Source: Halorubrum lacusprofundi ATCC 49239 (GTDB lineage: Archaea; Halobacteriota; Halobacteria; Halobacteriales; Haloferacaceae). From it: DNA of 64,000 nt. Made by a program: the position numbers and the translations under genes. Below, piece after piece: positions 41,599 to 46,471 of the stretch. The notes beneath the pieces are model-generated. The model was given only the letters and a program-made list of their open reading frames with translations, ran no database searches and had not been told where the DNA came from. Location of the stretch: positions 1,426,001 to 1,490,000 of the forward strand of contig NC_012029.1 in assembly GCF_000022205.1 (NCBI RefSeq). The letters are read 5' to 3'. Numbering within the stretch: position 1 is the first letter of the stretch; the number at the start of each line of letters is the position of its first letter.

Positions 41599-43299
41599 TC
41601 ACTCCCCGTCGAGGCCGAGCGCGTCTCGAACCTCGGCCCGCGTCTCGCAGGCGAGCGCCTCGTCGGCGAGAGCGCGCGCCGCGTCCGAGTCGATCTCTCG
41701 AATTCGCTGTTTCACCGCCGGTACGGTCACTGCGCTCATGCTGAGTTCGTCGAGGCCGAGCCCGACGAGCAGCTCCGTGAGCGCCGGGTCACCGGCCATC
41801 TCGCCGCACATTCCGACCCACGCGTCGGTCCCGGCCGCAGCCGACGCGGTGCGATCGATCGCACGCACCACCGCAGGATGAAGGGGGTCGTGGTACGCGG
41901 CGACGCCGTCGTTCTCGCGGTCGGCCGCCATCACGTACTGCGTGAGGTCGTTCGTCCCGATACTCAGGAAGTCGAGCCGCTCGGCGAGTCGGTCCGCGAG
42001 GAAGACCGCGGCCGGCGTCTCGACCATCGCGCCCAACTCGGGGACCGCGTGGTCGATCCCCTCGGCAGCGAGGTCGGCTGCGACCGACTCGACCGCCGAG
42101 ACCGCGGCCTCGACCTCCTCGATCCGGGAGACGAGCGGGAACATCACCGCGATCCCCTCGCCGTGCTCGTGGGCCGCCGCGCGCAACAGCGCCCGGAGCT
42201 GCGTCTCGAACAGGTCGCGGTGCTCGTCAAGCGAGAGCCGGATCCCCCGCCGCCCGAGGAACGGGTTCGACTCGTCCGGCAGATCGAGGTACGGCACCTG
42301 CTTGTCGCCGCCGACATCGAGGGTCCGGACGACGACTCGCCCGTCGGGGAACGCCGACAGCGCGGCCGTCACGGCCTCGTACTGCTCCGCTTCGGTCGGA
42401 GGGGTCTCGCGGTCGTAAAAGAGGAACTCCGTCCGGAACAGCCCGATCCCGTCGGCGCCGCGCTCGGCGGCCGGAGCGATCTCCGCCTCGCTTCCGACGT
42501 TCGCCGCCACTTCAATCGGTCGGCCGTCGGCGGTCGAGACGCGCTCGGGCACCGCCGCCGCCGCATCCGCGTCGGCTCCTTCGCGGGCCGCCGCGTCGGG
42601 GTCGACGACGACTCGTCCGTCCGTTCCGTCGACGAGCAGTTCGGTGCCGTCCTCGATCTCGCGAAGCGACTCGCCGACTCCGACGACCGCCGGGATCGAC
42701 AGCGACCGCGCGATGATCGCGGCGTGAGCAGTTCGGCCGCCCGCGACAGTCGCGATCCCGGCGACCCCGTCTGGATCCAGTTCCGCGGTGTCGCTCGGGG
42801 TGAGCCGCTCGGCGAGCACCACGGTCCCCGCTGGGAGGTCGCCGAGGTCGGTGGCAGCGTCGGTATTTAAAAGGATACGGAGCAGGCGGTCCCGCACGTC
42901 TCGCAGGTCGTCGGCGCGCTCGGCCATCTTCCCATCGAGCGCCTCGAACTGCTCGATCGCGGCCGCGAACCGGTCGCTTACGGCGTGTTCGGCCGGCGTC
43001 CCGCTCTCGATGGCCGCCTCGATGTCCTCGACGAGCTCCGGATCGTCGAGGAACTGCTCGTGGGCCTCGAACACCGCCGCCTCCTCCTCGCCGACGCGCT
43101 CGGCTGCTCGGTCGCGGGCACTCCGGATCGCCTCGCGGGCCGCGTCGCGAGCGTTCTCGAATCGTGCCAGCTCGGCGTCGACGTCGACGGCGGACGGATC
43201 GGGCCGGTCGGGGAGCGTCAGGCTGGCTTCGGGACGGTGCCAGTGTGCTGTGCCGACGCCCGACAAGGGCGTGCTTCCGACGCCGGTGAGCGTCCTCAC
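41599..43299 (-). CDS. ptsI: Phosphoenolpyruvate-protein phosphotransferase (PTS enzyme I)
   Basis: A 566-aa enzyme I that autophosphorylates from PEP and passes phosphate to HPr. Active-site His192 is in GGRTAHAAIIARSLSIPAVVG. The C-terminal PEP-binding barrel shows GADGIGLFRTEFLFYDRE, FLGRRGIRLSLDE, FLSIGTNDLTQYVMA and the catalytic Cys in VGMCGEMAGD. The start is GTG overlapping the ptsH stop (GTGA), so the two are coupled. Convergent with dhaKLM, with 20 bp between the stop codons. Confidence 0.96.
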   Translation of the reverse strand: MRTLTGVGSTPLSGVGTAHWHRPEASLTLPDRPDPSAVDVDAELARFENARDAAREAIRSARDRAAERVGEEEAAVFEAHEQFLDDPELVEDIEAAIESGTPAEHAVSDRFAAAIEQFEALDGKMAERADDLRDVRDRLLRILLNTDAATDLGDLPAGTVVLAERLTPSDTAELDPDGVAGIATVAGGRTAHAAIIARSLSIPAVVGVGESLREIEDGTELLVDGTDGRVVVDPDAAAREGADADAAAAVPERVSTADGRPIEVAANVGSEAEIAPAAERGADGIGLFRTEFLFYDRETPPTEAEQYEAVTAALSAFPDGRVVVRTLDVGGDKQVPYLDLPDESNPFLGRRGIRLSLDEHRDLFETQLRALLRAAAHEHGEGIAVMFPLVSRIEEVEAAVSAVESVAADLAAEGIDHAVPELGAMVETPAAVFLADRLAERLDFLSIGTNDLTQYVMAADRENDGVAAYHDPLHPAVVRAIDRTASAAAGTDAWVGMCGEMAGDPALTELLVGLGLDELSMSAVTVPAVKQRIREIDSDAARALADEALACETRAEVRDALGLDGE

Positions 43300-43625
43300 G
43301 TCGGGTCACCGCCGTCGTCGGCGCTCTCGGTGTCGTCGCTCTCACTTTCTTTCCCCTCTTCGACCTCGCTCGTCAGTAGGTCACAGACCGCGTCGAGCGC
43401 GTCGGCCGCCTCCGCGCCCTCGGCGACGACGCGGACCGACTCGCCGTGGCCCACGTTCAGCCCGCTCACCGAGAGCATGCTGTCGGCGCGGACGAGCCCG
43501 TCGTCGCCGTCGTTCGCGCGACCGATCGACACGTCCGCATCGAACCGATTCGCCGTCTGCACTAGCTTCGAGGCCGGCCGCGCGTGGAGGCCCGCCTCCG
43601 GCACCACCGTTACGGTACGTTCCAT
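43296..43625 (-). CDS. ptsH: PTS phosphocarrier protein HPr
   Basis: A 109-aa HPr. The active-site His14 is in EAGLHARPASKLVQ; Ser49 in the DSMLSVSGL segment corresponds to the regulatory Ser46 position. The usual HPr is about 88 residues; here an acidic tail of about 20 residues (VEEGKESESDDTESADD) follows, a likely halophilic addition. The start at 43625 is canonical; the open frame upstream is not. Feeds DhaM, and possibly a fructose PTS encoded elsewhere. Confidence 0.94.
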   Translation of the reverse strand: MERTVTVVPEAGLHARPASKLVQTANRFDADVSIGRANDGDDGLVRADSMLSVSGLNVGHGESVRVVAEGAEAADALDAVCDLLTSEVEEGKESESDDTESADDGGDPT

Positions 43626-43680
43626 GAGGTCAGATAAGCACGGCGTGGCCTTATAAGTGAGTTCGGTGGAGCAGTCAGCC

Positions 43681-44460
43681 TTACTCGATGACGTCCACAA
43701 TCTCCCCCTCGATCATCCGCGCGAGGACGACCCGCGGCACGTCCGCGCGCTCGTGAACGACCCGAGCGATCTCTCGCGCCGCCGCCTCGTCGTCGGCGTC
43801 GTCGACCGCATTGACGAGCGGGATTGCGGTCGCGCCGCCCGGAATCCCTTTTAAACCACCCTCCTCGTGCGCGAGGACGCGACCGACCAGTTCGGGCGTG
43901 ATCTCGTCGCCGACCGCCGCATCCGTAATCGCCGCGACGCGCTCGGGGCGGTGGACGGTCTCCGCCGTCAGCGGCTCTCCGACCGCGCCGGCGCTCGCCA
44001 CCGGAACCACGCGGTCCGCGCTCGCCGGGATCTGCGGCTCGCGCTCGTTGGGAGCCTTGAGCAGGCGCGTCCGTGCGCCGTCGGCCTTCACGAGGACCGG
44101 CCCGTCGTGCGCGGCCCCGATCTCGTTGACAACAGCTGGGTCGTACCCCCGATACCGGTCGTCGCGCTCGCGCTCCGGGACCAGTCCGAGCGGGAACGAC
44201 TCGGCGCCTCCCCTCGACTCGGCGTCTCCCGTTGGTTCGTCTCCCTCGCCCGCCGTGATCTCGTCGAGCGCGGCGACGGGAGCCTCGGTGACGCGCACCG
44301 CGGCGACCTCGCGGTCGAAGATCGGGATCCGAACCGTCGCAGTGAGTACCGCCCGGTCAAGACGGTCGGCGAGCGCGTAGAGAGTGGTCTTCTTCCCGCC
44401 GGCGCCGACGAGACAGGTCGTTCCCGCGGCCGCGTCGAGCGCGTCGACGACATCGTTCAT
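43681..44460 (-). CDS. yqeC: YqeC-family protein (selenium/molybdenum-cofactor associated)
   Basis: A 259-aa protein with an N-terminal P-loop-like segment (GTTCLVGAGGKKTTLYALADRL), strand VLTATVRIP, and PVLVKADGARTRLLKAPNEREPQIP, the conserved core of YqeC. The family is known from genome context with selenium-dependent molybdenum hydroxylases, but its reaction is not settled. ATG codons at 44460 and 44472 are both possible; the inner one better fits a TATA-like element near 44490. It is divergent from an aldehyde:ferredoxin oxidoreductase homologue, another molybdopterin/tungsten enzyme. Confidence 0.82.
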   Translation of the reverse strand: MNDVVDALDAAAGTTCLVGAGGKKTTLYALADRLDRAVLTATVRIPIFDREVAAVRVTEAPVAALDEITAGEGDEPTGDAESRGGAESFPLGLVPERERDDRYRGYDPAVVNEIGAAHDGPVLVKADGARTRLLKAPNEREPQIPASADRVVPVASAGAVGEPLTAETVHRPERVAAITDAAVGDEITPELVGRVLAHEEGGLKGIPGGATAIPLVNAVDDADDEAAAREIARVVHERADVPRVVLARMIEGEIVDVIE

Positions 44461-44584
44461 GTCCGAACGCATGGTCGGCCGGGGGCGAAAGCCCGTCGGT
44501 CGGAGCGGGGTCAGAGCGAGGTCAGGGAGGATCCACTGGCCCCGGCGTGTGGTTTAATCCCGTTCGCCCGCGAGGTCGCTTACG

Positions 44585-46471
44585 ATGACCGTCCCCGACC
44601 GGATGCTCCGCGTCGACCTCTCCGCGGAGCGCGTGCGCAGCGAGCCGGTCCCCGAGGAGTGGCTCGCGCGCTACGTCGGCGGGAAGGGGCTCGGGGCGCG
44701 GTACCTCTACGAGATGGAACCGGGCGTCGACCCGGCGTCGCCGGTGAACCGACTCGCGTTCCTCGTCGGCCCCCTGACCGGCTACCTCCCCGGCGAGCCG
44801 CGCTACGCGGCGGTGACCAAGTCCCCGCTCACGGGCACGTTCCTCGACTCCTACGGCGGCGGGGCGTTCGCGGCCCGGCTCGCCGGCTCGCTCGACGACC
44901 ACCTCGGAGTCGTGATCGAGGGCGCAGCCGACGAGCCGGTAACCCTCTCAATAGTCAGCGGGGAGGCGACGATCGAGCCAGCGAGCGACCTCCGCGGGCT
45001 CGACGCGGCCGAGACCGACGCGCGGTTCTCGGAGGCCGCCGTCGCCTGCGTCGGTCCGGCCGGCGAGGCGGGGGTCCGGTACGCGACGATCGCCTCCGAC
45101 GGCGGCGACCACCACGCGGGCCGGGGCGGCGCGGGCGCGGTGATGGGCGCGAAGAACTTGAAAGCAGTCGTCGCCCGCGATCCGCCACCGAAGATCCCAC
45201 CAGCGCTCCGGGAGCTCCGCGAGCGCGCCGATGAGGCGTTCGCCGACAGCGACGCCGGCCGGTGGCTCGCCGCGGGCGACACCTTAGAGACCGTCGCGTT
45301 CGGCGACGAGACCGGGGTTCTCCCGACTCGCGGCTGGCAGGTCCGCCGCTTCGACGGTGCCGAGGGGCTCGGCGTCGACCGAGCGAGCGAGCGCGCGACC
45401 GGGCGCGAGCGCCCCGACGACCCGGTTCCGGGCGGGTTCCGGGTGTCGACGGGTGATAAAGAGCGTTCGGACGACGCCCCCGATGCCCCCGACGCCACCG
45501 ATGCCCCCGACGCCACCGTCCCCCGCGGCGGGACCCCCATCGCGCTCGGCGCGGGGCTCGGGATCGACGATTTCGACGCGGTGGCGACCCTCGGCGGCGT
45601 CTGCGACCGGCTCGGGATCGACGTGATCTCCGCCGGCAACACGGTCGCGTGGGCGGTCCGCGCGAGCGACGCGGGGCTGATCGATCCCGCCGATCACGGC
45701 GTCGACCGCGGGCTCTCCTTCGGCGACGAGGCGGCCGCGAGGGCGCTGATCGAGGAGATCGCGGCTCGGTCGACCCCTCTCGGCGACGCGCTCGCGGACG
45801 GGGTGGCCGCCGCGGCGGAGCGGTTCGGCGGGACCGACCTCGTGCCGACCGTGAAGGGGATGGAACTGGCCTCCTACGACCCCCGCGGCGCGGCGACGAT
45901 GGCGCTGGCGTTCGCGACGGGCGACCGCGGCGGCTGCCACCGGCGCGCCCGGCCGGTCGAGACCGAAGCGGTGGTCGATCCGGGATGGACGCCTGATGAG
46001 CGGGCCGCCGTCGTCGCGAACGAGCAGGATCGGCGGGCCGCGCTGTGGTGTCTCGTCGGCGACGACTTCCTCGCTGAGAGCTTCGGGCCGGCGGCGGCCG
46101 CCGAGTGGCTCGCCGCCCTCGGCGACGAGCGCGATCCAGAAGACCTCCGACTCCTCGGCGAGCGGGTGTGGACGCTCACGCGCCTGTTCAACCTCCGAGA
46201 GGGGTTCGGCCGCGGCGACGACGGGCTCCCGGAAGCGCTGACGCGGGGGACCGACAGGGCGGGCGAAACGGATGAAGAGCCCGACGACGGTCTCGATCCC
46301 GACGCCTTCGAAGACCTTCTCGATCGGTACTACGCGCACCGCGGCTGGGACCGCGAGGGGCGACCAACGGCCCGGTTGCTCGACCGACTGGGGCTCGCGG
46401 ACCTTCCCGACGCGGCGACGCCGGTCGGGTCGGCGGCGGAGGTACCGGACTCCGGCGGCGGCGTCGACTGA
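44585..46471 (+). CDS. Aldehyde:ferredoxin oxidoreductase family protein lacking the CxxCxxxC motif
   Basis: A 628-aa tungsto/molybdopterin oxidoreductase homologue. N-terminal domain motifs: YVGGKGLGARYLYE, LVGPLTGYLPGEPRYAAVTKSP, DSYGGGAFAARL and GRGGAGAVMGAKNLKAV, which bind the bis-pterin cofactor. Where family members carry CxxCxxxC for the 4Fe-4S cluster (before the GxGIDDFDAVATLGG segment), this protein instead has a Cys-free acidic insertion with DAPDAT repeats. The distal Cys seems kept (AALWCLVGDD). Either the cluster is lost or ligated differently. Residues 230 onward to the end otherwise follow the family. Physiological aldehyde unknown. Confidence 0.82.
   Translation: MTVPDRMLRVDLSAERVRSEPVPEEWLARYVGGKGLGARYLYEMEPGVDPASPVNRLAFLVGPLTGYLPGEPRYAAVTKSPLTGTFLDSYGGGAFAARLAGSLDDHLGVVIEGAADEPVTLSIVSGEATIEPASDLRGLDAAETDARFSEAAVACVGPAGEAGVRYATIASDGGDHHAGRGGAGAVMGAKNLKAVVARDPPPKIPPALRELRERADEAFADSDAGRWLAAGDTLETVAFGDETGVLPTRGWQVRRFDGAEGLGVDRASERATGRERPDDPVPGGFRVSTGDKERSDDAPDAPDATDAPDATVPRGGTPIALGAGLGIDDFDAVATLGGVCDRLGIDVISAGNTVAWAVRASDAGLIDPADHGVDRGLSFGDEAAARALIEEIAARSTPLGDALADGVAAAAERFGGTDLVPTVKGMELASYDPRGAATMALAFATGDRGGCHRRARPVETEAVVDPGWTPDERAAVVANEQDRRAALWCLVGDDFLAESFGPAAAAEWLAALGDERDPEDLRLLGERVWTLTRLFNLREGFGRGDDGLPEALTRGTDRAGETDEEPDDGLDPDAFEDLLDRYYAHRGWDREGRPTARLLDRLGLADLPDAATPVGSAAEVPDSGGGVD

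Follow-up and report, generated by a model that had tools for sequence, protein, structure and literature searches.

The stretch analysed here (the window) comprises 64,000 nucleotides of the genome of Halorubrum lacusprofundi ATCC 49239 (contig NC_012029.1, positions 1,426,001 to 1,490,000 of the forward strand). It carries an open, intact reading frame at 44585-46471 (+) for a protein of the AOR family, P0001, which lies divergent from a yqeC gene. The features discussed below are as follows, in window coordinates.

43681..44472, minus strand: yqeC, divergent neighbour of the AOR-like gene (YqeC family, TIGR03172 and PF19842; P-loop NTPase-like model)
44473..44584, no strand: intergenic stretch of 112 bp between the divergent yqeC and AOR-like genes (from the coordinates)
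44585..46471, plus strand, stop codon included: P0001, a 628-aa member of the AOR family that lacks the [4Fe-4S] ligands (ORF call, domain search, alignment, model)
45281..45289, plus strand: Thr233 (equivalent of Thr243, T in 170/171) and Glu235 (E in 171/171) (alignment)
45407..45532, plus strand: stretch replacing Cys288/291/295 to Glu313 in P. furiosus numbering, consisting of PGGFR, an acidic loop and VPRGG (alignment)
45472..45518, plus strand: imperfect 18-bp repeat, 2.6 copies, encoding the DAPDAT-like acidic loop (repeat search)
45935..45940, plus strand: Cys451-His452, equivalents of Cys447-His448, in the RGGCH motif kept in 171/171 rows (alignment)
46046..46063, plus strand: Trp488, at the position of Asp489, to Asp493, at that of Cys494, the fourth ligand of the cluster (alignment)

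Public records name proteins of this type 'aldehyde ferredoxin oxidoreductase C-terminal domain-containing protein', and the domain search matched P0001 to AFOR_N and AFOR_C, both well over their cut-offs. A sequence search against the PDB returned only AOR/WOR-family proteins, headed by the bifurcating WOR 9mqx and P. furiosus AOR 1aor, and BamB aligned far more weakly. The AlphaFold model, built from a 56-sequence alignment, reached a pLDDT of 90.7 and a pTM of 0.92, and its best matches in the PDB were FOR/AOR (TM 0.86; VIA-align Z 48-50 across 577-582 residues), which supports a predicted three-domain AOR fold near full length. For the stretch that replaces the cluster motif this fold is supported without proof, because intact relatives were included in the alignment given to AlphaFold. 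The H. lacusprofundi genome (3 contigs, 3.69 Mb) holds three AOR-family genes; in both of the others the CxxCxxxC motif is intact. Comparison of the AOR-like gene with five close relatives gave dN/dS values of 0.19-0.26, indicating purifying selection. On the far side of yqeC, genes for PTS enzyme I and HPr adjoin it (window 41599-43700, minus strand), and a pair of adjacent genes for molybdopterin oxidoreductases is located some 8-12 kb ahead of the window (G000:C2:1414219-1417776).

Cluster ligands, catalytic acid and retained pocket

For residue numbering, P0001 was mapped by alignment onto P. furiosus AOR (1aor), whose [4Fe-4S] ligands we take to be Cys288, Cys291, Cys295 and Cys494. At the positions of Cys288 and Cys291 the protein has gaps or non-Cys residues, Cys295 is replaced by Gly283 (45431), Cys494 by Asp493 and Asp489 by Trp488, and Glu311-Tyr312-Glu313 by Arg314-Gly315-Gly316 (45524-45532). 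The same changes run through its relatives. Among 171 full-length haloarchaeal clade rows, which include near-identical same-species entries from two collections and were counted after removal of the frameshifted L077, not one has any of the proximal ligands Cys288, Cys291 and Cys295, and all four Cys ligands that mark the AOR/WOR redox enzymes are lost (0/171); Asp at 494 and Trp at 489 occur in all 171. In the outgroup, all four Cys ligands and Glu313 are present in 41/41 rows. Position 313 is Ala, Gly or Ser in the clade, and Glu313 is gone together with its relay partner Tyr312 in 172/172 rows of one alignment and 171/171 of another. The first-pass annotation, which had reported that this AOR-family protein lacks CxxCxxxC and had suggested alignment with known AORs and paralogues, was thus borne out: all orthologues lack the motif (171/171 without the triplet, against 41/41 outgroup rows with it, a contrast that chance would not produce), and the two paralogues in the same genome are intact.

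Two trivial explanations can be weighed at this point. A sequencing error, a frameshift or a decaying pseudogene could appeal to the one broken relative, L077, but it is rejected by the identical substitutions in 171/171 rows from many genera and by the dN/dS of 0.19-0.26, and the frame is open; we consider its probability negligible. The other is that P0001 is an ordinary AOR whose redox cluster is held by other ligands, such as Asp493 and residues elsewhere. Iron binding by the Asp that replaces Cys494 is conceivable in principle, and one Cys occurs in the replaced stretch in 3/172 clade rows; however, the other three ligands are lost, the stretch is Cys-free in 169/172 rows, and CxxC was found in one clade protein only, which leaves this explanation highly improbable. 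A scan of the whole protein found no CxxCxxxC anywhere in P0001, ruling out that the triplet has moved elsewhere in it. Our guess is that Arg314 and Asp493 occupy the vacated cluster site.

The segment in place of the Cys triplet had been described in the first-pass annotation as Cys-free and acidic with DAPDAT tandem repeats, and this description stands, but the idea that the repeats replace the cluster motif does not. The loop between PGGFR and VPRG measures 8 residues in 129 of the 168 clade rows in which the flanking pattern was found, reaching up to 52 in others, and in the model of P0001 the loop residues 299-307 have a pLDDT below 50. We take the DAPDAT repeats to be a local lengthening of an acidic surface loop that is variable in the clade; a function as substitute for the cluster site was rejected, since the length of the loop is not constant.

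The distal Cys ligand was said to be kept, which proved mistaken: the retained Cys451 is the equivalent of Cys447 in the RGGCH motif, a non-ligand, and the true fourth ligand Cys494 corresponds to Asp493. Retention of the pterin motifs was correct in part, as D338 and D343 stay, but the second motif, D489 to C494, now reads W488 to D493. Together with the replacement of Asp489 by Trp, a change of Arg182 to His in the clade alters the pterin site. The surrounding pocket is kept to a large extent, with Thr243 in 170/171 clade rows, Tyr427, His448 and Asp343 in 171/171 each, Arg76 in 159/171, and Arg at position 450 in 171/171; three of the four members of the second-shell set (Thr243, Glu313, Tyr427, His448) therefore remain, Glu313 being lost in all rows. 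The clade has also acquired an invariant acid of its own, Glu235 (Pfu 245), two residues past Thr233, where Glu occurs in <=15% of outgroup rows; further clade invariants are Arg314 (169/171), Trp227 and Asp493. Compared with P. furiosus AOR (1aor), FOR (1b25) and H. volcanii WOR83 (9q1t), P0001 is alike in both Pfam domains, in the full-length fold and in the equivalents of Thr243, Tyr427, His448, Asp343 and Arg76, but differs in the absence of the [4Fe-4S] ligands, Glu313 and Tyr312, with Trp at 489 and Asp at 494. According to PMC12096430, the YdhV/BamB branch of the AOR/WOR family likewise shows unusual second-shell residues and a chemistry other than aldehyde oxidation, but unlike in P0001 its metal is bound by an additional Cys.

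Most likely, then, P0001 descends from a tungsten aldehyde oxidoreductase: the AOR fold and some of the bis-pterin/metal pocket are still there, while redox catalysis has probably been lost. The clusterless clade is monophyletic with a single origin (SH-aLRT 100) in a tree built from a thinned set of 82 rows with the trait columns left out, and it joins the intact sister sequences from haloarchaea and L088, a protein of Bipolaricaulota, with a support of 100. One family alignment used in the analysis comprised 42/47 clade relatives plus the window protein and 13/32 intact relatives. The intact sister group (Natrialba magadii, Natronorubrum aibiense and Natribaculum longum plasmids) is 41-45% identical and has His182/His183 and Tyr93 in common with the clade, but it differs in retaining all four Cys ligands and Glu313 in 9/9 rows, with a further set of six sister sequences likewise all intact; it already has His182 and Tyr or Phe at 489. 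In the assembly of Halolamina pelagica CDK2 (L077) the clusterless gene is broken across two frames, and two copies on separate contigs occur in genomes G180, G191 and G356. No description of a clusterless AOR clade was found among the matches listed for the terms used in an open-access library, most of them judged by title and opening of the abstract.

Association with formate dehydrogenase, yqeC and mobA genes

The genomic context was surveyed at 100 loci of other carriers, chosen from the places listed by the carrier search, in stretches of 20 kb (shorter where a contig ends), with 20 canonical AOR loci as control; few of the 100 are from Halorubrum, three genomes contribute two loci each, and related genomes are included in the counts. 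A formate dehydrogenase (FDH)-like/DMSOR-family gene is near the clusterless gene at 69/100 loci versus 0/20 in the control, YqeC at 39/100 versus 1/20, and MobA at 23/100 versus 1/20, the last enrichment being weak by itself (p 0.07), and at 25/100 loci YqeC, MobA and DMSOR genes are all missing from the neighbourhood. Because none of the 20 control loci has an FDH-like gene, a link to FDH as a general property of canonical AOR genes was rejected. The first-pass annotation had asked whether relatives share the genomic context, and they largely do.

The neighbouring FDHs fall into three recurrent types. The first is an FdhF on its own (L114, 759 bits, the cut-off being 666) and the second an FdhF paired with NuoF (L115, 798 bits). 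The third resembles FDH-N, begins with a signal-peptide-like segment and comes with a Fer4 subunit and a NarJ-type chaperone; its truncated representative scores under the curated Fdh-alpha cut-off. The FDH stop lies 8 or 56 bp ahead of the aligned start of the AOR-like match (L221, L219), a candidate FDH start follows the AOR-like stop by about 73-91 bp (L211, L201), and a divergent FDH-N-like frame lies 96-272 bp from the AOR-like gene (L123, L125, L138 and others). The clusterless gene is thus genetically linked to FDH genes, by context counts and by tight linkage, and since it stands before, after and divergent from them, this linkage arose or persisted in more than one gene order. On a Haladaptatus salinisoli plasmid, yqeC, a molybdenum cofactor guanylyltransferase, the AOR-like gene, a molybdopterin-dependent oxidoreductase and a NuoF-like gene are found together; annotated plasmids of Halomicrococcus, Halobellus and Haloterrigena carry fdhF genes near the AOR-like gene, and yqeC, guanylyltransferase and FDH-type neighbours are absent on those of Halostagnicola and Halorussus. 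Two proteins without a Pfam match (cluster representatives in L220 and L183) also recur near the gene, one of 263 aa that weakly resembles the N-terminal part of HdrA (46/101 loci) and one of 120 aa (33/101 loci).

The placement of the gene bears on whether P0001 could be a pseudoenzyme that senses or stores W/Mo-pterin, controlling the genes for FDH or for the cofactor but handing on no cofactor itself. The kept fold and partial pocket with catalytic residues gone, and the divergent orientation to yqeC and some FDH genes, would fit such a protein; however, AFOR_N and AFOR_C are found in 56/56 members of the set A1 with no DNA-binding or signalling domain among them (0/56), and the operon-like placement with FDH occurs in both orders, and we regard a sensor or store as distinctly improbable. 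It is unlikely, though less so, that the protein is a W/Mo enzyme acting without a cluster, which would pass electrons directly from the metal to a flavin, a quinone or an FDH subunit, or catalyse a non-redox formate/C1 reaction in the manner of acetylene hydratase (W cofactor), with Glu235 near Thr243 replacing Glu313. Such an enzyme would account for the retained Thr243, Tyr427 and His448 and for the invariance of Glu235 in 171/171 rows, and C1 genes (formamidase, formate-tetrahydrofolate ligase) are near the clusterless gene on two plasmids. Nevertheless, Glu313 and Tyr312 are gone throughout, no consistently adjacent redox partner gene was seen among the context loci, and the gene is linked to several FDH types and to yqeC/mobA, not to the pathway of one substrate. 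Of the two outcomes that the first-pass annotation had put forward, a different electron acceptor or a role outside redox chemistry, the second is favoured by the loss of Glu313/Tyr312, by the lack of a consistent redox partner gene and by the association with Mo/W-cofactor genes.

Co-occurrence lists for the clusterless gene, YqeC and Fdh-alpha were compiled by hand from search results in 391 Halobacteria genomes. Carriers were called by E-value; 14 unclear genomes were inspected, in 10 of which residues were read (6 of the sister type, 4 of the clade), and identity was the only basis for assigning G048, G251, G353 and G306. By these calls the clusterless gene is present in 218/391 genomes. 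YqeC, found in 275/391 overall, accompanies it in 217/218 carriers versus 58/173 non-carriers, the only carrier without it being G362, a genome that is 85% complete; within 27 mixed genera the figures are 141/141 versus 46/98 (CMH p 8e-20). The Fdh-alpha marker TIGR01591 is too broad when matches of any strength are counted, as it then finds 356/391 genomes (218/218 carriers versus 138/173 non-carriers); a threshold of E < 1e-200 retains 284 genomes (289 with the curated cut-off); at this strength Fdh-alpha occurs in 205/218 carriers versus 79/173 non-carriers. In some genomes without the clusterless gene (G036, G069, G124, G220), YqeC lies about 1-3 kb from an Fdh-alpha gene.

YqeC is a known marker of selenium-dependent Mo hydroxylases. 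One YqeC alignment in the analysis took in 22/24 sequences. The predicted model of the window's YqeC (pLDDT 87.9) has a P-loop-like motif and matches SIMIBI-type NTPases including MeaB and UreG, although the matches are weak and partial (TM about 0.4). MeaB and UreG, SIMIBI NTPases that act with a scaffold, help load cofactors or metals, and YqeC resembles them in the P-loop-like motif and the SIMIBI-type model. However, SRP GTPases match the model as well or better, and with matches this weak no specific function of YqeC follows. In PMC11448449, a yqeC deletion in C. difficile is described as having no clear growth phenotype.

Possible role in cofactor delivery and its meaning

FdhD is the FDH sulphurtransferase that binds Mo-bisPGD; according to PMC10609526, the E. 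coli protein binds Mo-bisPGD, sulphurates the cofactor and passes it to FDH, and halobacteria often have FDH genes without fdhD; the review asks which proteins handle Moco insertion and sulphuration. In our search FdhD (PF02634) was found in 0/391 Halobacteria genomes, the same search being positive in 8/14 control genomes (three archaeal), and no PF02634 domain was found in P0001, for which the domain search gave AFOR_N and AFOR_C only. FdhD and the clusterless AOR are unrelated proteins, alike in the proposed role alone, that is, in delivering a ready cofactor to FDH.

The loss of catalytic residues with a partly retained pocket, the association with FDH, yqeC and mobA genes, and a class without FdhD together favour a carrier or maturation role, and we tentatively propose, with a confidence somewhat short of even, that P0001 is a non-redox AOR-fold carrier of Mo/W-bispterin or a maturation factor acting with YqeC and MobA; that it binds and carries the cofactor, in which sequence the steps run and that it substitutes for FdhD are inferred. 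An AOR-fold protein, with its pocket for a metal and two pterins, is a plausible cofactor holder. In this scheme, an ancestral AOR has lost its electron exit, as all four ligands of the [4Fe-4S] cluster are gone, and also Glu313, its catalytic acid, along with Tyr312; the clusterless protein would hold a W- or Mo-bispterin cofactor, or a bis-MPT precursor, and hand it over, with the P-loop NTPase YqeC gating loading or release and MobA adding nucleotides to the cofactor. The cofactor would go to apo forms of formate dehydrogenase, and perhaps also to further enzymes with a Mo/W-bispterin centre, in a class with FDHs and without FdhD. The main points against a carrier role are the genomes with a strong Fdh-alpha match but neither the clusterless gene nor FdhD, and the 25/100 loci with no Mo/W gene nearby. 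The altered pterin site (Asp489 to Trp, Arg182 to His), the FDH-N-like representative under the Fdh-alpha cut-off, the weak MobA enrichment and the C. difficile deletion also count against it. The gene does not accompany FDH in every genome that lacks FdhD: 79/173 non-carriers have a strong Fdh-alpha match and none has FdhD, so the clusterless gene is not needed for every FDH. The fuller version of the proposal, a single event in haloarchaea by which an AOR became a factor for inserting Mo/W-bispterin, no longer active in redox chemistry, that acts together with YqeC and replaces FdhD in FDH maturation, is more doubtful.

In PMC13328260, the residues that bind W-pterin and [4Fe-4S] are stated to vary very little across WORs, and a whole clade without the cluster ligands and Glu313 is an exception to that rule. 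Together with YqeC, the clade is also a concrete candidate for the fdhD gap named in PMC10609526. If the insertion-factor reading is true, the clade would represent an AOR-fold cofactor chaperone and provide an answer to how formate dehydrogenases mature in Halobacteria.
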